Shown here one piece after another: positions 3,687 to 32,771 of a DNA stretch of 64,000 nucleotides. Position 1 is the first letter of the stretch. Each line of letters opens with the position of its first letter. The DNA lies in the NCBI RefSeq assembly GCF_006715145.1, contig NZ_VFMR01000001.1, positions 2,666,001 through 2,730,000 on the forward strand. Direction: 5' to 3'. Both the position numbers and the translations under genes were made by a program. Under the pieces are notes generated by a model. That model saw only the letters and a list, made by a program, of their open reading frames with translations. It made no database searches and was not told where the DNA came from. The stretch is from Microbacterium sp. SLBN-146 (GTDB taxonomy: Bacteria > Actinomycetota > Actinomycetes > Actinomycetales > Microbacteriaceae).

Positions 3687-4850
3687 TCAGGTCGCGAGGT
3701 TGGCCAAGTGCTCGCGTAGCGTGGGCCCTGCCCGGAACTCGCGGATGAGGTGCTGGACGACGTCGCGGAGGTCGCCGTCCGCGGCATCCGCCACGAGCAT
3801 CTGCCGTGTGGACGAAGATCCCTGCGTGAGGATCGCGTCGAGACCCGCGAACTCCCGAGCGCACTTCAGTTCGGCGGCGACGTCGGCCAGACGGTCGACC
3901 GTCTCCCGCAGATGGTCGGTCACGAGCCGCTGGGTTCCGTCGGCGTCGACGATGAGGCGGGCCTCGAGCCCGTACCGCGCGGCGCGCCACTTGTTCTCGC
4001 GCACGAACCAGGGTTGCAGCGTGGGGAGCGTGCGGCCTTCGTCGAGTTCGCGGGAGAAGTGCTCGACGAGCACCTGCACGAGCGCTGCCAGGGCGGCGAG
4101 TTCGGGAAGCGTCGACATGCCGTCGCAGGCCCGCACCTCGATCGTCCCCCACCTGGGCGCCGGGCGGATGTCCCAGCGCACCTCTGAGGAGTCCTCGATC
4201 ACACCGGTGCGCGCCATGTCTTCGAGATAGTCCTCGAACTCGCTCCAATCGGTGAGCGGCCAGGGGAGACCGGCTGTCGGGAGCTGCTGGAACACGAGGC
4301 TCCGGTTCGACGCGTATCCGGTCCGCTCGCCCGCCCAGAACGGGCTGGACGACGAGATCGCCTGCATATGCGGCAGATACGTCGCGAGCGCGTTGATGAT
4401 GGGGAAGACCTTGTTGACGTCTTCCACGCCTACGTGCACATGAATGCCCCAGATCATCATGTTCCGCCCCCACCACTGGGTGCGTTCGATGAGCTTGTGG
4501 TAGCGCGTCTTATCCGTGACCTCTTGGTCGTACCACTGGGCGAAGGGGTGACTTCCCGCGCACATGAGCTCGACGCCGAGCGGATCGCTCACGGAGCGCA
4601 CGGCGCTGATGGCGTCGGCGATATCGTCGATCGCGGCGGCGACCGTGTCGCCGATGCCGCTTGTCACCTCGACGGTGTTCGTCAGCAGCTCGCTCGTGAC
4701 GGTATGGCGCTCATGCTCCAAGCGGTCGGCGAGGGCGTCGATGATCTCGGGCGCTCGCCCGACGAGTTCGCCGCTCTCGGGATCCACCAGCATCAATTCC
4801 CACTCGACACCGACCGACGAGCGGGCAGAAGTGGCGAAGGCCTCCGTCAT
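3687..4850 (-). CDS. Carboxylate-amine ligase of the glutamate-cysteine ligase type 2 family (YbdK-like)
   Basis: 387 residues with the GCS2 signatures: [16 protein letters not shown] at the N terminus, AGSHPFAQW, the HVHVGVED block, [17 protein letters not shown]-type sequence in the middle, and a C-terminal EVRACDGM strand. The family joins glutamate to an amine or thiol using ATP. Actinobacteria of this group use mycothiol rather than glutathione, so the real substrate is uncertain and gshA is not assigned. The gene stands alone, facing away from rpsP; the ATG at 4848-4850 fits the family start. Confidence 0.88.
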
Positions 4851-12988: not shown

Positions 12989-14511
12989 GCCTCGCTCGTA
13001 CGTGGTCCGTCGCCTTGAGCGGCGTGGATGGACACCTCGTCGAGGTCGAGGCCGATCTCTCGAACCAGCAACCCGATTTCCGGATCATCGGACTCGCTGA
13101 CAAGGCACTCGGCGAAGCGGCGCAGCGCGTCCACAACGCGGCCGCGAACAGCGGCCTCGAGCTCCCTCGACGAAAGCTGACCGTCAATCTCTCGCCCGCG
13201 AACCTGCCGAAGCACGGATCGGGGTTCGACGTCGCGATCGCCGTGGCTGCGCTTGCGACGGAGGGCACGTGGAATGCGGCTTCGCTCATGAGCACTGCGC
13301 ATGTGGGTGAGCTGGGCCTCGACGGACGGCTCAGGCCGGTACCGGGGGTGCTCCCGGCGGTCGTCGCTGCAGCACGCGCAGGATTGCGCCGAGTCGTCGT
13401 GCCACTGGCGAACCTCGAAGAGGCGAGCCTCGTGGACACGATCGAGGTTCACGGAGCGGCGAGCCTCGCTGCCGTCGCGGCACTGCACGGCGCGGAGGTC
13501 GTGGTCGACGATGTCGATGCCGTCCAGCTGAACGCCGAGCCTGTGCCGGCGCCGCCCCGCGTCGATCTCTCCGACGTCGTGGGCCAGCCCGAAGCCGTCG
13601 AGGCGCTGGTCGTGGCAGCCGTCGGCGGCCATCACCTCTTGATGTCCGGTCCGCCCGGCGCCGGGAAGACGATGCTCGCACGCCGCCTGCCCGGCATCCT
13701 CCCCGATCTCGACGACGCTGATGCGTTGGCCTGCGCATCGATTCGTTCACTCGCGGGTCATGCCGTCACTGATCTCTCGCGGACGCCTCCCTTCGAAGCT
13801 CCGCATCACAGCGTCAGCGTCGCCGCACTCGTCGGAGGCGGGTCGCGGTCGGTGCGGCCCGGTGCGATCGCTCGAGCGAGCGGAGGCGTGCTCTTCCTCG
13901 ACGAAGCGGGCGAGTTCCAGACTTCGGCCCTCGATGCGCTGCGTCAGCCGCTCGAGAACGGCACGATCGAGATTCACCGGACCGGGTTCTCAGCGCTCTT
14001 CCCCGCTCGATTCCAGCTCATCCTCGCGACGAACCCGTGCCCCTGCGGCAACTACGGAGTACGCGGCGGCACGTGCGTGTGCACGCCGATGGCCATCCGA
14101 CGCTATCTGGGTCGGCTGTCCGGCCCCCTCCTGGATCGCATCGATATCGAACTCCATCTCGCGCGGGTCTCGGTGGCCGACCGCGTCGGCCACGCCGCGC
14201 CCACGTCGACCGCGGAGGCGCGTGCACGCGTGGCGGAAGCGCGGCGCCATTCCGCTGCACGCCTCGCCGGCACGCCGTGGAAGCTCAACGCGGAGGTGCC
14301 GGGGACGTGGTTGCGCGATGGTCCGAGCGCGCCGTCGCCGACCGTCCGACGTGCGCTCGATGTCGCGCTTCAGCGTGGATCGCTGACGCTCCGGGGATAT
14401 GACCGGGTTCTTCGACTCGCCTGGTCGCTCGCCGATCTGGCTCAGCGCCCCCAATTGTCCATCGACGACGTCGGACGCGCGCTGTTTCTCAAGAGAGGTG
14501 CAGGGGAGTGA
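12985..14511 (+). CDS. ComM/YifB-type AAA+ ATPase (Mg-chelatase-like)
   Basis: 508 residues: an N-terminal Lon-like substrate domain (VDGHLVEVEADLSNQQPDFRIIGL, NLSPANLPKHGSGFDVAIA), a Walker A GPPGAGKTML, Walker B VLFLDEAGEF, and a four-cysteine insert NPCPCGNYGVRGGTCVC. In Gram-negative transformers ComM is a helicase that widens branches during recombination of incoming DNA. It is coupled to yraN (ATGA) and to dprA (GTGA), so the three genes form a DNA-processing operon that the prophage now breaks. Confidence 0.93.
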   Translation: MSLARTWSVALSGVDGHLVEVEADLSNQQPDFRIIGLADKALGEAAQRVHNAAANSGLELPRRKLTVNLSPANLPKHGSGFDVAIAVAALATEGTWNAASLMSTAHVGELGLDGRLRPVPGVLPAVVAAARAGLRRVVVPLANLEEASLVDTIEVHGAASLAAVAALHGAEVVVDDVDAVQLNAEPVPAPPRVDLSDVVGQPEAVEALVVAAVGGHHLLMSGPPGAGKTMLARRLPGILPDLDDADALACASIRSLAGHAVTDLSRTPPFEAPHHSVSVAALVGGGSRSVRPGAIARASGGVLFLDEAGEFQTSALDALRQPLENGTIEIHRTGFSALFPARFQLILATNPCPCGNYGVRGGTCVCTPMAIRRYLGRLSGPLLDRIDIELHLARVSVADRVGHAAPTSTAEARARVAEARRHSAARLAGTPWKLNAEVPGTWLRDGPSAPSPTVRRALDVALQRGSLTLRGYDRVLRLAWSLADLAQRPQLSIDDVGRALFLKRGAGE

Positions 14512-15254
14512 TCGAGATCGACATGACACCGCGGACCGCGCGTGAGTCCCTCGGCCGTCTCGCTGTCGATGACGACGACACCACCGTCGTCGTCCGATAC
14601 GCACGCGCGATCTGGAGCGCCCTCGTGGAGCCGGGCGACGGCGTCGCGGGAAGATTCATCGGCGCTCTGGGAGCCGTCGAAGCGTTGCGCGTCGTCGTAG
14701 CAGCAGCGGCGGGAAGTGGTCCGCCGGCGATGGACTCGGACGACCTGAAGCGGGGATGTGAGCGCTGGATACCGCGGTTGAAGAAGGGCGGGGTGAGCGA
14801 CGCCCTGGCTGTCGCGGGGCGCACCCGTGTCCGACTCGTGATCCCCGAAGACGCGGATTGGCCGCGTTCGCTCGCTGACCTCGGCGACCACGAACCCGTT
14901 GCCCTGTGGGCCCGGGGCGACACGGACGCTCTCCGGAGGTCGCCGGTGGGCGTGGCGATCGTCGGTGCGCGCGCGTCGACCGCCTACGGCGATCGTGTCG
15001 CGGGCGAGTTGGCGACCGAACTCGGCTCCAGCGGCATAACTGTCGTGTCGGGCGCCGCCTACGGCATCGATGGGAGCGCGCATCGAGCAGCCCTCGCCGT
15101 CGATGCTCTCACCGTCGCATTTCTCGCGGGCGGGGTCGAGGAGGCCTACCCGCGCGGGCATACCCGCCTCATCGACACGATCGCGGAGAGGGGCCTCCTC
15201 CTCAGTGAGGCGCCCTGCGGATCGCGCCCGACCAAGTGGAGGTTCCTGCACTAG
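14508..15254 (+). pseudogene. dprA: dprA, 5' part, truncated by prophage insertion
   Basis: DprA loads RecA on incoming single-stranded DNA. The Rossmann-fold start is present (GVAIVGARASTAYGDRVA, VVSGAAYGIDGSAHRAAL, LAGGVEEAYPRGH, LLSEAPCGS), but the frame ends at RFLH-stop, with the last His codon and the TAG supplied by the prophage. 248 codons are left. The conserved RNRLIAALS segment and the rest of the fold are on the far side at 32327-32771. The truncated protein lacks half of the core fold and is very probably inactive. The GTG start overlaps the preceding stop. Confidence 0.95.
15249..15250 (+). other. attL core dinucleotide CA
   Basis: The chromosome-prophage junction. The sequences TTCCTG-CA (left) and TTCTGT-CA (right, 32325-32326) share only CA at this point. 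Joining left flank, CA and right flank makes a single Gln codon and restores dprA in frame. A 2-bp core is what a serine integrase leaves. Confidence 0.85.
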
Positions 15255-15332: not shown

Positions 15333-16235
15333 ATGCAAGTCACGGAGTACATCGGCACCCAGCGACCAACGCCCCAGACGCTCTACCGAGTTGGCATGAC
15401 GTTGGAACCGTTGGTTCGTTGGTACGACGAGACACCAGACCCCGAGCGTCCCCACGACCACGGCGTGAGCATCGGGATGAATGACATGTACCGGCCCACC
15501 GGCATCATCGCCACGTTGCAGGCGTACGAGATAGGGTCCCGTCGCATCACGCCGAACACATCGGTCTCTTTAGTTGAAGAGAACCTACGCGATCTCATTC
15601 CGACTGAAGCAACCGCGTTCGAGATCGGGTTTACGTACGTGGGTTCGCCACAGCTGTACCCCGGACAGGCGTCCGTGATGATCTTGCACAGGGACGGAAG
15701 CCCGTCCACATATGTCCACGTTGAGATGCCTGATGAGCACGCAGTACCCACGCTGGACGCGGTCCGCGCGATTTTGAACGAGTTTCCCCTTGTCGTCAAT
15801 GAACCTCCAGTCGGGCCGCTGAAGGTGTTCATCGGCCACGGCGGGGATCGGAAGTGGGAGGTCGTGCGCGACTTGATCGCAGCCCAGGAAGGGTATGAGG
15901 TAGTCGCGTTCGAGTCCGAGCCGCGCGCCGGTTCGATCAATCTCGACGTGGTTGAGGGCTTGATCACAAGCGCAGGCGCGGCCGTCATCGTGATGACCGG
16001 GACTGACCGCGTGGAAGGGGGCCTCCGTGCCCGTCAAAACGTCATTCATGAGTTGGGATTCGCCCAGGGTCGGCTAGGCCGATTCGAGACAATTGTGATG
16101 GCTGAGGAAGGCGTTGAGCGCTTCACAAACCTTGGAGGGCTGAATGAGATTCGCTTTCCGACCGGGCAGATACACACCGCCAACGACGAAGTGCTCGCCG
16201 CTCTCGCGCTTCGGGCGCGCGCTAGAGGCGCGTAA
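15333..16235 (+). CDS. TIR-domain protein (CAP12/predicted nucleotide-binding type), candidate anti-phage effector
   Basis: 300 residues. Residues about 164-290 match the TIR-like family found in cyclic-nucleotide defence effectors: KVFIGHGGDRKWEVVRDLI (164-182), VVEGLITSAGAAVIVMTG (206-223), RARQNVIHELGFAQGRLGR (232-250) and GLNEIRFPTGQI (269-280). Glu240 in NVIHELG is the likely catalytic glutamate of a TIR NADase. The first 163 residues are a separate domain I do not recognise; by analogy they may sense a phage protein or a signal nucleotide. Leaderless start. The stop overlaps the next gene as TAATG. Role in defence is inferred from family and position. Confidence 0.85.
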   Translation: MQVTEYIGTQRPTPQTLYRVGMTLEPLVRWYDETPDPERPHDHGVSIGMNDMYRPTGIIATLQAYEIGSRRITPNTSVSLVEENLRDLIPTEATAFEIGFTYVGSPQLYPGQASVMILHRDGSPSTYVHVEMPDEHAVPTLDAVRAILNEFPLVVNEPPVGPLKVFIGHGGDRKWEVVRDLIAAQEGYEVVAFESEPRAGSINLDVVEGLITSAGAAVIVMTGTDRVEGGLRARQNVIHELGFAQGRLGRFETIVMAEEGVERFTNLGGLNEIRFPTGQIHTANDEVLAALALRARARGA

Positions 16236-22913: not shown

Positions 22914-23888
22914 TCACGCCGGGGTGGTGTGCTTGAGCACGAGACCGCGGGAGTCGTTCGTGATGTCCGCGAGGTACCCGTAGAGCGCAGGGTCGATCGC
23001 GCCGTGGTGCGGTGCGAGACCTTCGACGCGGATGGGTGCGCCGGGTAGTTCGAAGACGGTCAGAGCCTGCGAAGCACCAACAAGCACGTTGTCGGTTCCG
23101 ACGGTGCCGGGAACGATCTGGAAGCCGTCGAACGTGCCACCCGTCAGACCGAAGGAGGCAGACAGGTGCGCCAGCTTCTCCTTGTCGAGTTCGTAGAGCA
23201 CGGACCCGTATACGGAGGGGTCCACGACGGCGAACGTCGGAGTGATGTCGTTGGCGACCAACTGAAGCGCGCCCTGGATGATTCCGGCGTACACGGCGTT
23301 CACACCAGATACGGGCGTGATGTTCGTTGCGGAACCGGCAGCGGTGACAGCCTTCGCGAGGATGTCAGCGTCGGAGACCTTCGCGTAGGACTCGCTCATG
23401 AGGCGGAAGTACGACTCGATGACGCTCTGGTCATTGAAGTCCAGGTAGCGGCGATCGATGCGATGACCTCCCGCGATACGACGCGCCTGCGCGGTGACCG
23501 GCGCTGTGTCGACCGCGTTGGATGGAATCTCTGCGTTGTTGCCCGCGTATGCGGCGACAGTCGGCTTCGTGACCCAGGACCAACCACGAACCTCGTAGTT
23601 GGTGAGGTCTCGCTGGTGGAATAGCGGGATGTACTTCCGCTGATAGGCGTTTCCGCTCCACAGCTCGCCTAGGTAGCCGGTCTGCTGAACGTCGGCACCG
23701 ATTGTGACGGCTGATGGCCCGGAGTGCTGGATCGGCGAGATGGCGAATAGGGCACCTGCCTCGTCCGGTGTCTCCAGAGCTGCGAGGGCGGATGCGTCGC
23801 GGGACGTGACGGCAGCGAAGAACGCGGATGCGCTTTCGCCTGCCTGGACCGGGTTGTCTGCCCCGGTCTCGGGAACAATGGAAGTCAC
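22914..23888 (-). CDS. Nested in-frame start giving free major capsid protein
   Basis: A GTG at 23886-23888 (Val216 of the fusion) is preceded at 6 nt by AAGGAGGAG (23895-23903 on the minus strand), one of the best ribosome sites in the window. Starting here would give a 324-residue protein beginning VTSIVPETGADN, the usual size of an HK97-fold capsid subunit without protease or linker. The sequence predicts two products from one frame: much free capsid and some protease-capsid fusion. The second product is inferred. Confidence 0.7.
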   Translation of the reverse strand: MTSIVPETGADNPVQAGESASAFFAAVTSRDASALAALETPDEAGALFAISPIQHSGPSAVTIGADVQQTGYLGELWSGNAYQRKYIPLFHQRDLTNYEVRGWSWVTKPTVAAYAGNNAEIPSNAVDTAPVTAQARRIAGGHRIDRRYLDFNDQSVIESYFRLMSESYAKVSDADILAKAVTAAGSATNITPVSGVNAVYAGIIQGALQLVANDITPTFAVVDPSVYGSVLYELDKEKLAHLSASFGLTGGTFDGFQIVPGTVGTDNVLVGASQALTVFELPGAPIRVEGLAPHHGAIDPALYGYLADITNDSRGLVLKHTTPA

Positions 23889-24533
23889 TTCGGACTCCTC
23901 CTTCGTTTCTTGTGGGGTGTCCTCAGCCGGGGCGGCTTCGGGGGTCTCGGGGGTGACTGCCTGATGCGCCGCGAGTGCCGCCGTGGCCACAGATAGGCGA
24001 GCGGCGATTTCGGCCAGCTCCTCGGCGGTAATCGGGCGTTCGTCGGCCTCATCGCCGGGAGCGACGGAGAAGAGGGCGGCGGATTCGAACGAGCCCTCGG
24101 CGCAGACGGCAGCGCCTGTAAGGCGTGCGGATATTGCGTTCTCGCCTTCCCGCGTCCATCCGGGAGCGATCTCGGCAGAGAGCTTGCGGACCGGGTTTGC
24201 GAGGTAGGCGTCGCCCTCTTCGGTCTCGGCGATTGCGAAGGTTGCCTCGATACCTCGCTCGGTTTCGACCAGCGCAGTCGCCCGTCCGAGCGGGCTGAAG
24301 TGGTCGTGTTCGTCGTAGAGCGTCGCGACGGAAGGATCGGCAGGCAGCTTCACGACGCCCGCGCTGAACCTGACGGGCGCGGTCTCGCTGAGATTCGGAC
24401 GGCTCAGCTCGCCGAAGGGGAGGAGGAGTCCGCGAATCGTGCGGGTATCCGCCACCCGGGCGAACAGACCCGCTGGCTGAGAAGCAGACTCATTCTCAAT
24501 AAGAGACGAGATGTGGGTCGGTGGTTTGGTCAT
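22914..24533 (-). CDS. Fused prohead protease and major capsid protein
   Basis: 539 residues. The N-terminal 170 residues are an HK97-type (U35-like) prohead protease: IRGLLLPFGELSRPN, ATLYDEHDHFSPLGRA with the expected His, and VRKLSAEIAPGW with the expected Ser. An acidic Pro/Glu linker (about 175-215) follows, like a scaffold or delta domain. From about 216 the protein is an HK97-fold capsid subunit (RDLTNYEVRGWSWVTKP, AGGHRIDRRYLDF, FAVVDPSVYGSVLYELD). The full product starts at the ATG behind AGGAG. An internal start inside the linker is listed separately. Confidence 0.88.
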   Translation of the reverse strand: MTKPPTHISSLIENESASQPAGLFARVADTRTIRGLLLPFGELSRPNLSETAPVRFSAGVVKLPADPSVATLYDEHDHFSPLGRATALVETERGIEATFAIAETEEGDAYLANPVRKLSAEIAPGWTREGENAISARLTGAAVCAEGSFESAALFSVAPGDEADERPITAEELAEIAARLSVATAALAAHQAVTPETPEAAPAEDTPQETKEESEVTSIVPETGADNPVQAGESASAFFAAVTSRDASALAALETPDEAGALFAISPIQHSGPSAVTIGADVQQTGYLGELWSGNAYQRKYIPLFHQRDLTNYEVRGWSWVTKPTVAAYAGNNAEIPSNAVDTAPVTAQARRIAGGHRIDRRYLDFNDQSVIESYFRLMSESYAKVSDADILAKAVTAAGSATNITPVSGVNAVYAGIIQGALQLVANDITPTFAVVDPSVYGSVLYELDKEKLAHLSASFGLTGGTFDGFQIVPGTVGTDNVLVGASQALTVFELPGAPIRVEGLAPHHGAIDPALYGYLADITNDSRGLVLKHTTPA

Positions 24534-24541
24534 GGGTGCTC

Positions 24542-25627
24542 CTAGGCCGCTTCGGGTGCGGCGTCTGCGGCCAGCTCGGGACCGTGTGAGTTGTTGGGAA
24601 CGTCAGTGAGGTTCGAGCGGTCGAAGCGCACGACCTGTCCCTGCGGCGTGACGTCGGGCATGCTGAGGCGTGCCTCGATCGGCGCGAGCCAGTACTCCAG
24701 CCAGTCGATGAGCGACTGCCGTTCGCCCTCCTGCGTGACGTATGTCAGAGAGGCGGTCGCCGTCGATCCGTCGAGCAGAGATGCGGGGAGGTTTAGAAGG
24801 TTCGCGACGTCGAGACGTAGCGCGTTGAAGGCTTGGTCGTACAGCTCGGGTTTGATGTCACCGTGGACCGCGAGGGACAGCTTGGAAGGCAAGAACCCGA
24901 TCATGCCGTTCGGGTCGCGGCGTCGGTCGCCCCAGGCCTTCACGTACTGTTCGGCTTCGGCCTGCGTGACCTTGCCCGCCTCGGTCTCCTGCAAGACCAT
25001 TGCGGGGATGGGGTTCTGTGCCTTCGCAAGACGCGCAAGTCCGAGCGCCGCCCACGACTGGACAGCTTCGTTGCCGGTGGCGAGGATGCCTTCGTCCGGC
25101 CCCTGAAAGAGGATCACGTTTCGCGGGTCGGTGACCGGCGTCTTGTCGATCCGTATCCCCAGGGGTGTGCTCTGGTCGAAGCTCCAGCGGTTCTGCGGCA
25201 ACGCGTACGCGTCAAGAATGGTCCCGGCCTCGGATCGGTTCAGCGCCCAGAGTGACCAGCCGTAGAAGATGAGGTCGTCAACGGTCGTCGCCATGCGGTG
25301 CCAAGGCGTCTGTGTGCCAGAGCAACGGGTGAGCCATACGGGTTGGCGGTTTGCTGGTACCCAAGTCACGCCGTCCCACGCGCCCGCGCTCAAAGGCAGA
25401 TCTGAGATTGAGCCCACGATGATCGCTCGACCGCGCTTGATAGGAGCGACCTTCATGGCTGCGGTGCGCTGGAGTTCTCCGTACTTCGAGCCGAAGTGGT
25501 CGCGGTACACGAGCGCTTGCGCATTTGTCTCGTACCACTGCGATTCGGGTACGAGCGAACCGGAGGCGGCGGCAAGAGGAGCTGCACCGCCTCCGGTGCC
25601 GAAGAAGAGGTCAGACAGCCAGCCCAC
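24542..25627 (-). CDS. Portal protein
   Basis: 361 residues, HK97-type portal: MGWLSDLFFGTGG start, AAMKVAPIKRGRAIIVGSI, DLIFYGWSLWALNR, AEAEQYVKAWGDRRRDPNG, and LRLDVANLLNLPASLLDGS. It forms the dodecameric gate for DNA at one capsid vertex. Its start is GTG. The 91-bp gap upstream is clearly AT-rich and holds a near-palindrome, so a promoter for the structural genes may lie there. Confidence 0.88.
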   Translation of the reverse strand: MGWLSDLFFGTGGGAAPLAAASGSLVPESQWYETNAQALVYRDHFGSKYGELQRTAAMKVAPIKRGRAIIVGSISDLPLSAGAWDGVTWVPANRQPVWLTRCSGTQTPWHRMATTVDDLIFYGWSLWALNRSEAGTILDAYALPQNRWSFDQSTPLGIRIDKTPVTDPRNVILFQGPDEGILATGNEAVQSWAALGLARLAKAQNPIPAMVLQETEAGKVTQAEAEQYVKAWGDRRRDPNGMIGFLPSKLSLAVHGDIKPELYDQAFNALRLDVANLLNLPASLLDGSTATASLTYVTQEGERQSLIDWLEYWLAPIEARLSMPDVTPQGQVVRFDRSNLTDVPNNSHGPELAADAAPEAA

Positions 25628-25718: not shown

Positions 25719-27290
25719 TCAAGCGGCGAGGATCGGGCCGAAGCTCTCGACTGCCGGGTTCTCGTCGTAGTAGCGAAGCGCGAGTGCCGCGGCTTCGAGC
25801 GCACTGATATCGGCGCTGTCGTACTCCTTGGGTGGGGGCCCAAAGGCCCAGCTCGCGGGGCCTGTTTTGCGGCGCACGGCGATCTTCGCTGCGGTATCGA
25901 GGGGAGACTGTTTGTAGTGCACGACGTTGCCCTGGTTGATCTCCTTGACCAGGAGTGCGGCGGCACTTGTCACATCATCGAACCCCTGCTCGCGCAGGTC
26001 GGGAGTCGGCTCCATGCGCGCCATGACCTCTGCTTCGGCTCGCATCGTGTTGCTCTTCTTGTCGAAGATGACTGGTACGCCGTACTCGCGAGACTTCCGC
26101 GCTGCCGCGTCTGCCAGCCATGTTGTGCCGTTGCGGTGGTCGATGAGGTAGATGTGTGCGCGACCGCTCTCATCGCGCCAGACGCAGACGATCGAACCGT
26201 GCTTGCCGGGGAAGCTGGTAGCGGCGGCGAGCGTCACGTGCTCGGGGCGGTCTGGCACGGCATCGTTCCCTGCGTCGATCCACGATTGAACGTTGATCGG
26301 CCCCAGGCCCTCACCGATCGTGCCAAAGATGCCCAGATACTCGCGCCCGAAGCGCTCCGGTCCTTGCGCGACGAAGCGCCGACGTACCTTCTCCTCGGTT
26401 GTGAGGCCAGACTGAATGCCCGGGTGCATGGCCAGCGTCAGTTCGCGAGCACGTGCGAATGGTGCATCCTCGCTCGGCTCCCAAGCCTCCAGCTCGTCGG
26501 GGGTTGTGTCCTCGGGGATGGCGTACCGCACGTGTGCGTTGTCGGCGTTGCCCAGTGCTTCATACAGAAGCTGCGAGCGGCGGAAGGTGCCAGCAGTGCC
26601 GGTGAGGATGAGCTGCCCGTCTGTTGTGTCGAACGTGCTCAGGATTGCGTCCAGGAGGTCCTTTGCCTGCTCGGGCGTCGCTTCTCCGGACTCATCGATC
26701 CAGACGCACGAGTAGCTGGAGGCACGGAAGCTCGCACCCTTCGCCGTCTTCTGTGAAAACCGCGAGCCGTTCGGGAACTTGATGTGCTCGCTTCCCTTGC
26801 CCTTGTAGATGCGCACGGGGCGTGTCTCGGGGTCCGGATACAGCGTCTCTAGCTCGTCCATGACCGTCTGCGTGAAGACCTCAGAACTCTTGCTCGCAAG
26901 TGTCGTGATCGAGAACGCGGCGTTGTACTTGGGGCGGAGGAGGCAGCGCCCCAATATCAGCATCACGAGAGTCTTCGTCTTGCCGATCTGGCGGGGCGCG
27001 AGGACAGCGCCTACCTCCTGTCCGGCGTTTAGTGCGTCGGCGATCAGGAGCTGGTGAGCATGCAGGGTTGATACGTTCAGGAGGCGAGCGCCCGCGATCA
27101 GCTCAGCACGCGTCTGTTCAGTCGTGACCAGTTCGGTAGCGTCCAGCGGCTGAATCGCGGTGTCTCGCCAAGTGAGCCAGACCGCCTCATCCTGGAGATC
27201 GTCGAGCGAGGGCGCAGACAGGGGAGGGATTTCGCTCGCCGCCTCGGCTTGGTGATGACGATCCGTCAAAAGATCACCATCCCGATCCAC
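25719..27290 (-). CDS. Terminase large subunit
   Basis: 523 residues. The ATPase domain has the Walker A variant LAPRQIGKTKTLVM and Walker B CVWIDESGEA; the C-terminal part carries acidic residues of an RNase H-like nuclease (HIYLIDHRNGTTWLADAA, VIFDKKSNTMRAEAEVMARM). It packages DNA into the prohead. The start is uncertain: the ATG at 27290 overlaps the HNH gene by 17 bp, and a TTG a few codons later (LTDRHHQ) is an alternative. Confidence 0.9.
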   Translation of the reverse strand: MDRDGDLLTDRHHQAEAASEIPPLSAPSLDDLQDEAVWLTWRDTAIQPLDATELVTTEQTRAELIAGARLLNVSTLHAHQLLIADALNAGQEVGAVLAPRQIGKTKTLVMLILGRCLLRPKYNAAFSITTLASKSSEVFTQTVMDELETLYPDPETRPVRIYKGKGSEHIKFPNGSRFSQKTAKGASFRASSYSCVWIDESGEATPEQAKDLLDAILSTFDTTDGQLILTGTAGTFRRSQLLYEALGNADNAHVRYAIPEDTTPDELEAWEPSEDAPFARARELTLAMHPGIQSGLTTEEKVRRRFVAQGPERFGREYLGIFGTIGEGLGPINVQSWIDAGNDAVPDRPEHVTLAAATSFPGKHGSIVCVWRDESGRAHIYLIDHRNGTTWLADAAARKSREYGVPVIFDKKSNTMRAEAEVMARMEPTPDLREQGFDDVTSAAALLVKEINQGNVVHYKQSPLDTAAKIAVRRKTGPASWAFGPPPKEYDSADISALEAAALALRYYDENPAVESFGPILAA

Positions 27291-30969: not shown

Positions 30970-32310
30970 CTAGCGGGGCGACACTGCTACGCGGTCCAGC
31001 CCGCGACCCTTCTTGACCTGGACGCTGAGGCGTGACTCCACGAGAGCACGGCGGGCGTCCAGGTCTTGTGCGTCGAAGAACTCTTCCCACGCGTCCAGGT
31101 CCACATCCACATCGAACGAACCGTCTGGGAGCGTACGAACACCGGATTCGATACCTTCCGCAAGCACCACCCGCGCCCGACGCGTCAGCTCTTGCGTAGC
31201 CGACGCGACGCGGGAGCGGCCCAGCTCCGCCGCCACGCGCTCGGACTCCTCGTGAATGCGGGCCAGCTCGCGCTCAACCTCCGTCATGTCTGCCCACGGC
31301 AACGCGCCCATGCGTGTCCACCGCTTGCGCTCTTCCTCCAGTTCGCTGAGCCTCCGTGCGAGCGGACTGGGTGCGTCGTGGGCCTCTCGTCGTTGACCCC
31401 GGATCAACTCGACCGCCAGGTGGGCCTTCACGAACTCCTCTAGAGCGGTCTTGTAGATGGTGGCGTGCGCGGTGTCGGCGGAGCATGCGTAGTAGCGGGA
31501 GATGGCGCGCATCTTCGCGCCACACCCAGGCTCGGCGCATGTGGCGATTCCAGACAGCAAATGCTGGCGCGAGGGACCGGGGGATACTCGGCGCGCCTCA
31601 TCGGCTAGGAGGTCTTGGACAGCCAGCCAGGTGTCCCGCTCGACGATCCGAGCAACCTCGGGCGCGGCCTCGAACCGTTCGCCGCCTCGAACGACCCAGC
31701 CCGCATACGCGGGGTTGGTCAGAATCTCACGCACCCGGACCGGAGGGCGTCCCCACTCGTTCGCCACTGATCTAATACTGCGACCATTCAGGAGGTCCAC
31801 GTAGGCGCGTCGAATCTTGTCGGCCTCCTCGGGCCGCTCCAAGATGTTCCCCGGCTCGAATCCCATACGCCGCTTCCCCGGTACGGGCAGACCTTCCGAC
31901 ACTCGGGATTCGTTGGCCCTTGTCTGGCGCTCACCTTTCCGGCGAGCCTCGAACGACGCCAGCGAGGTCAGCAACTCCGCGCGGAAGCGACCCTCCGCGG
32001 TAGTCAGGTCTAGGTCTCCCTCGACGGTGGCTACCGTCTTGCCCGCTTCGATGAGTGCGAGGAGGTCGGCCTGTCCACGGAGCAAGCGATCCATGTTGAC
32101 CGCCACCACAACGTCCGCGGGTGAGGCGAGAAGCCTTGCCCATGCAGTACCAGGCCCACGAGACTTGAACGCACTCACGGCATTGTCCTCGAACTCCGCA
32201 ACGATGCTCCACCCTCGCGATGCCGCGAGAGCACGGCACCGCGCTAGCTGGCGGTCGATTCCCTCCGCCTTGTCGATGGACTGGCGCGTGTAGATGGCGA
32301 TATCTGTCAC
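30970..32310 (-). CDS. Large serine integrase
   Basis: 446 residues. The catalytic domain starts TDIAIYTRQSIDKAEGIDRQLARC with the nucleophile Ser11; VVAVNMDRLLRGQADLLALIEAG is the second signature. A recombinase domain (RIRRAYVDLLNGRSIRSVANEWG), a zinc ribbon with cysteines in CAEPGCGAKMRAISRYYAC and a coiled-coil region (LEEERKRWTRMGALP...ELARIHEESERVAAELG) follow. It inserts the prophage at dprA. The start is GTG at 32308-32310, 14 bp from the attR core, the usual integrase-attP layout. Confidence 0.95.
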   Translation of the reverse strand: MTDIAIYTRQSIDKAEGIDRQLARCRALAASRGWSIVAEFEDNAVSAFKSRGPGTAWARLLASPADVVVAVNMDRLLRGQADLLALIEAGKTVATVEGDLDLTTAEGRFRAELLTSLASFEARRKGERQTRANESRVSEGLPVPGKRRMGFEPGNILERPEEADKIRRAYVDLLNGRSIRSVANEWGRPPVRVREILTNPAYAGWVVRGGERFEAAPEVARIVERDTWLAVQDLLADEARRVSPGPSRQHLLSGIATCAEPGCGAKMRAISRYYACSADTAHATIYKTALEEFVKAHLAVELIRGQRREAHDAPSPLARRLSELEEERKRWTRMGALPWADMTEVERELARIHEESERVAAELGRSRVASATQELTRRARVVLAEGIESGVRTLPDGSFDVDVDLDAWEEFFDAQDLDARRALVESRLSVQVKKGRGLDRVAVSPR

Positions 32311-32326: not shown

Positions 32327-32771
32327 GCGGAATCGACTCATCGCCGCACTGTCCGACGCGACCGTCGTGGTTGAGGCGGGGCAGCGCAGCGGCTCGCTGA
32401 ACACCGCCGGCCACGCCGCAGCGCTCGGCAGAGAACTCGGCGCAGTGCCCGGCCCCGTCACGAGTGCGGCGTCGGCCGGCTGTCATCGACTTCTCCGCGA
32501 CTATGGTGCGCAGTGCATTACGACTGCGGACGATGTGAGAGAGATGCTCGGCTTCCGATTGATGGACACGGGCAGCGGTTCACTCGAGATCGTCGACGGC
32601 TCCCTCAGGATCTTCGATGCTCTGAGCGCGCGTTCGTGGCGAACGGCGGAGGACATCGCTCAGCGGTCCGGGATGAGCCGAGCTGACGTAGAAGCGCGCC
32701 TCGGTCTCCTGTCGATGTCGGGGCTCGTCGATCGCGGTGCACAGGGGTGGCGCGATGCGAGGATGCCATGA
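32327..32771 (+). pseudogene. dprA: dprA, 3' part, separated from its start by the prophage
   Basis: The frame reads (Q)RNRLIAALSDATVVVEAGQRSGSLNTAGHAAALGRELGAVPGPV, the second half of the DprA Rossmann fold, then a C-terminal winged-helix part (RIFDALSARSWRTAEDIAQRSGM). It has no start or ribosome site of its own that is convincing. Precise excision would join it to 14508-15248 through one CAG codon, giving 395 residues, the normal length. Confidence 0.93.

Follow-up and report, generated by a model that had tools for sequence, protein, structure and literature searches.

In phage lambda, internal in-frame initiation in C/Nu3 separates the scaffold from the protease-scaffold protein; it is the scaffold that is nested there, and the capsid protein gpE is encoded by a separate gene. 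Herpesvirus UL26 shares its reading frame with the overlapping UL26.5, and the scaffold part of the long form draws it into the capsid (PMC4498786); 3'-coterminal transcripts in cytomegalovirus appear among the works in the reference list of the same paper. In HK97, approximately 60 proteases are present per 415 capsid proteins (PMC12749128). The fused gene of small siphoviruses was described as protease-scaffold-capsid and as typical of very small siphoviruses (PMC7302621, PMC5513430). With such fusions annotated as single proteins, the output of many capsid proteins and few proteases from one gene is left unexplained.

The window, which here means the whole stretch of DNA that was analysed, covers 64 kb out of a 3.6-Mb single-contig genome and contains a small prophage with its head genes on the minus strand. 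Terminase, portal and fusion are followed by connectors and the major tail protein, which is the gene order of the small actinophages with a fused gene. The features referred to below are, in the direction of transcription:

25719..27290, minus strand, large terminase gene (phrog_9, E=9.3e-14)
24542..25627, minus strand, portal protein gene, adjoining the fusion upstream (phrog_12, E=1.1e-8)
24539..24543, minus strand, AGGAG, Shine-Dalgarno (SD) of the fusion's own ATG, spacing 5 nt, -6.5 kcal/mol
22914..24533, minus strand, protease-capsid fusion gene, 539 aa, ATG start (open reading frame; phrog_2263 match)
24069..24455, minus strand, protease domain, residues 27-155 (AlphaFold pLDDT 91; assemblin fold)
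23838..23957, minus strand, disordered acidic linker, residues 193-232 (pLDDT mostly <50)
23895..23903, minus strand, internal SD AAGGAGGAG, -12.2 kcal/mol, conserved in relatives
23886..23888, minus strand, internal in-frame GTG, codon 216 (ATG, GTG or TTG at the equivalent site in relatives)
22914..23888, minus strand, predicted nested product, free major capsid protein, 324 aa (from SD, start codon and conservation)
23688..23888, minus strand, N-terminal extension of the nested product, ~67 residues, predicted helices (235-243, 247-254 and 275-281 in the model)
22920..23687, minus strand, HK97-fold capsid domain, residues 283-538 (fold; Pfam PF25209, E=5.1e-8)

The fusion was matched to phrog_2263, ‘major head protein’, with residues 25-532 on profile positions 33-539 of 551 (E=5.5e-56). 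Because this family match runs end to end, the fusion itself counts as known, and it is already annotated in small-genome actinophages. Protease and capsid lie in one uninterrupted reading frame and not in two separate genes as HK97 gp4 and gp5 do. A search of PDB sequences with the family profile gave no match, so a fold search was needed. An AlphaFold model of the fusion was built with 48 relatives. The protease domain alone was best aligned to the varicella-zoster virus (VZV) protease (Z 11.1) and to T4 gp21 (Z 10.6), and H76, S119 and E121, the candidate catalytic residues, were invariant across the aligned relatives; predicted fold and invariant residues together identify an N-terminal prohead-protease domain. 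A helix (170-190) stands between this domain and the linker. The modelled capsid domain was aligned to residues 118-383 of HK97 gp5 (1ohg) with Z 18.9 and rmsd 3.3 over 238 residues, and has the HK97 fold. By analogy with HK97, the extension of approximately 67 residues in front of it is read as a short scaffold, likely a delta-like scaffold or N-arm.

Some further observations were made on the prophage. It carries a serine integrase (30970-32310) and interrupts the host dprA, the N-terminal (14508-15254) and C-terminal (32367-32771) pieces of which both match DNA_processg_A; the lysogen is therefore probably without an intact DprA. The gene for a CAP12/Pycsar-type TIR-domain protein (15333-16235; PF10137, E=1.2e-19), possibly a carried defence gene, lies just within the prophage at its left end and is read in the opposite direction to the structural genes. 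An identical fusion protein is encoded on the 16,076-bp IMG/VR contig L001 (IMGVR_UViG_2808606306_000001), and for this reason the prophage has probably been catalogued in IMG/VR already.

Read along the minus strand, AAGGAGGAG (23903-23895) is followed by 6 nt, TCCGAA, and then by the in-frame GTG (23888-23886). A previous sequence-only reading of the window had placed an SD 6 nt before a GTG at 23886-23888, within the acidic linker between protease and capsid, and had predicted a frame of 324 residues nested in the 539-residue fusion. Spacing, codon and both lengths were confirmed, on the minus strand, which that reading had left unstated, and the linker corresponds to the disordered residues 193-232 between the two folded domains. 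SD strength was computed as pairing to the 16S 3' end and was -12.2 kcal/mol for the internal site vs -6.5 for the ATG of the fusion and -5.3 for the next best in-frame start; it was also the strongest among 12 prophage starts measured, with the major tail protein at -11.5. Twenty 20-kb stretches of the host genome (400 kb) were used as chance background. In their 71,480 codons, 4 internal start codons in frame were preceded by an SD match of 7 nt or more, from which ~0.008 such starts would be expected by chance in a linker of equal length. No clear signal emerged from RNA structure prediction; the internal SD is partly buried, with ~31% unpaired, much as in the major tail gene (34%). A variant of AAGGAGGAG with synonymous changes in the SD is AAAGAAGAA. 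A single site would be only suggestive, because the linker residues KEE partly force SD-like letters, and read from the sequences the internal start becomes convincing through its conservation and not through the window case alone.

Relatives were collected from phages, from the family, order and genus of the host, from GTDB contigs and from IMG/VR, and were made non-redundant. A site was defined as an in-frame start codon with a match to AAAGGAGGTG 4-12 nt upstream, of either at least 6 nt (6-mer) or at least 5 nt. A linker SD (at least 5 nt) with an in-frame start was found in 119/145 non-redundant relatives, which are ~25-50% identical, and the start codons at these sites were 64 ATG, 51 GTG and 4 TTG. 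The earlier reading had made its proposal depend on the conservation of SD and GTG; the SD and a start codon are kept in these 119 relatives, the GTG itself is not. In a set of 87 relatives, the frequency of 6-mer SDs with an in-frame start per 1000 codons was 4.16 for the linker, 0.10 for the protease and 0.23 for the capsid domain, and the two other frames of the linker gave 0.23 and 0. The pattern was repeated in an independent set of 58 further IMG/VR sequences (linker 3.09 vs capsid 0.28 per 1000 codons), and this comparative evidence supports the interpretation offered earlier, i.e. a fusion plus a nested capsid start. Pairwise identity near the site was 0.10-0.18 with two exceptions, the SD codons, which reached 0.29-0.32, and the start, which reached 0.45. 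The fused gene therefore holds, downstream of the protease domain, a nested 3'-coterminal in-frame reading frame with start signals of its own. A few of the best-scoring sites among the 119 lie away from the boundary (e.g. L103, L116) and may be due to chance.

The protease domain of the second set held ten in-frame SD-like matches in nine sequences (1.54 per 1000 codons). These were dismissed as starts, since they were traced to the codons of the active-site motif SAEV/SVEV. The SAEV codons (GCGGAGGT) yield an SD-like string and then an in-frame start in L139, L140, L147, L155, L157 and L175. Coding constraint can thus mimic an SD and is a source of false positives in searches for internal starts.

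Selection on the site was assessed by synonymous shuffling within genes, with the protein held fixed. Sites of 6 nt were present in 53/87 relatives vs 29.4 +/- 3.4 after shuffling (maximum 38 in 500 shuffles), and sites of 5 nt in 74/87 vs a mean of 50.7, again above all 500 shuffles. When linker SD 6-mers were picked blind to the codons downstream, 81/135 were followed by an in-frame start (14.4 expected) and only 5 by a start in another frame, vs 9/120 followed by an in-frame start (13.3 expected) in the capsid domain. Valine just after the SD was coded GTG in 32/44 cases vs 446/1592 elsewhere in the linkers (p=1.8e-9), and leucine TTG in 3/13 vs 20/1343. The residue after the start, which played no role in the selection of sites, was A, S, T, G, P or N in 106/119 vs 711/1488 after other linker M or V (p=5e-20). 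Methionine aminopeptidase favours small second residues, and judged from the sequences the small residue at this position fits the pattern of real protein N-termini. Both the codons of the site and the residue that follows it are under selection. The p-values are overstated because the sequences share ancestry; inheritance alone, however, would not be expected to preserve a start signal in linkers that have diverged so far.

We consider it very probable that this one gene gives two 3'-coterminal proteins by dual initiation, a fusion that carries the protease into the procapsid and a free capsid protein. The production of both proteins, their ratio, their co-assembly and their cleavage are inferred as follows. 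Ribosomes starting at ATG 24533 would make the 539-aa protease-capsid fusion, and ribosomes recruited by AAGGAGGAG to GTG 23888 would make the free 324-aa major capsid protein with its scaffold-like N-terminal extension. By means of its capsid domain the fusion would be built into the shell as this grows and would place a limited set of proteases inside the procapsid, and the short form would be the source of most capsid subunits. Linker and N-terminal extensions would afterwards be cleaved by these proteases. The internal start would in this way answer the stoichiometry of protease and capsid.

Translation of the fusion only, with a 1:1 yield and post-assembly cleavage of each copy in the linker by the protease, is an unlikely alternative for which the conserved acidic-hydrophobic motif would be the cleavage site. 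It agrees with the intact assemblin-like protease in the same chain, with the recurrence of the motif E/D-E..M/V at the boundary and with the members in which the internal site is missing. Cleavage, however, requires neither a start codon, nor synonymous selection, nor a small next residue, and the cleavage-site reading is disfavoured because all three were observed: the residue varies between M, V and L yet its codon stays a start, including GTG and the rare TTG, the synonymous codons are under selection, and the next residue suits removal of the N-terminal methionine. A programmed pause without initiation, in which the SD-like stretch delays synthesis of the capsid domain until the protease has folded, would explain why the stretch sits at the domain boundary. 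It requires no in-frame start 4-12 nt downstream, yet such starts were found in 81/135 cases vs 14.4 expected, and we regard it as extremely unlikely.

The site could also be a fossil, left without function when two genes, one for the protease and one for the capsid protein, were joined by loss of the stop codon between them. It is built like the normal start of a gene that follows a protease gene, and HK97 has separate adjacent genes (PMC12749128). A functionless site, however, would not persist in members 25-50% identical with near-randomised linkers, nor would it show synonymous selection, which makes this explanation very unlikely as a whole; its loss-of-function part is unsupported and its origin part may be right. 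The most reasonable origin is a stop codon lost between the protease and capsid genes, with the ribosome site of the capsid gene retained under selection. Unfused relatives were searched for among 396 genomes of the phylum and the phage collection, and none was found. As for chance, the residues KEE of an acidic linker spell an SD-like string in a high-GC genome, GTG is a common valine codon, and about half of the genes have a site, in weaker form, after codon shuffling with the amino acids fixed. The counts, however, lie above all 500 shuffles, were replicated in the second set and, within the linker, are confined to frame 0. By these three tests chance is refuted at the level of the family, and its probability is negligible.

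The boundary site was seen in the Gordonia phages Rahul, McGonagall, GRU3, GMA5 and Schiebs, in Rhodococcus phage RRH1, in the Arthrobacter phages Decurro, Kels, MooKitty, BlueFeather, Berka and Noely, and in the Curtobacterium phages Root and Penoan. EricDab and Yavru have a weak version of it, and no recognisable internal site was found in Emperor, SallySpecial and a few metagenome contigs. An automated ranking by SD energy had listed Gordonia, Rhodococcus and AN phages as lacking the site; this was an artefact of the linker cut and of overweighted energy, and a wider search recovered the site in these phages. In the lytic phages RRH1, McGonagall, Kels and Decurro, the internal SD was computed to be weaker or no stronger than that of the fusion itself, and the ratio of the two products can therefore not be read from SD strength alone. 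Pseudomonas phage Hadban (OR067381.1) and Arthrobacter phage Adaia (MH834594.1) gave capsid matches at the same positions, 3990-4751, with 26.1% identity; the Pseudomonas host of Hadban looks doubtful.

Boundary starts were also seen in the fusions of Burgy (cluster EE; GAGAGGAC, ATG166) and ScienceWizSam (AU1; AGAAGGGGG, ATG241), which were not retrieved as homologues by the protein searches (L202, L203). These two cases in unrelated fusions are a lead, read from sequence. Whether phage protease-capsid fusions in general, clusters EE and AU included, follow dual initiation as a rule, either independently re-evolved or retained, with the capsid domain of the long form as a packaging tag that meters the proteases, is in our judgement evenly balanced.

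A conserved internal start would be a simple answer to the output of many capsid proteins and few proteases, and can be checked by standard proteomics on phages held in collections (Decurro, BlueFeather, GRU3, RRH1, Burgy). If true, the annotation of the major capsid protein would be corrected in these genomes. Neither a description of an internal start nor protein, ribosome-profiling or mutant data on a second product were found in the searchable literature on small-actinophage fusions, and a family-wide conserved nested capsid start appears to be undescribed there.

Among known systems, lambda C/Nu3 shares with this gene the nested in-frame start, and differs in that its nested product is the scaffold. 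The fusions of the small actinophages (clusters AN, AX, FE, EE, CW and DM; RRH1; phrog_2263) are the same gene, with the same position after the portal and the same domains, and the window gene is one of them; they were described or annotated as one fused product, with no internal start mentioned (PMC7302621, PMC5513430). HK97 gp4 and gp5 likewise combine a protease with an HK97-fold capsid protein that has an N-terminal scaffold (PMC12749128), but as two separate genes, the protease entering as its own protein, whereas here there is one fused gene. Herpesvirus UL26/UL26.5 has the same protease fold and, as here, a 3'-coterminal in-frame nested reading frame that encodes the assembly partner (PMC4498786). 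The nested herpesvirus genes have transcripts of their own, whereas an internal ribosome site is proposed here, and the UL26.5 product is a dedicated scaffold, whereas here it would be an HK97-fold capsid protein with a short extension. If true, the fused gene would be a capsid-nested counterpart to UL26/UL26.5 on the same protease fold, and would differ from the known nested in-frame assembly genes by nesting the capsid protein itself.
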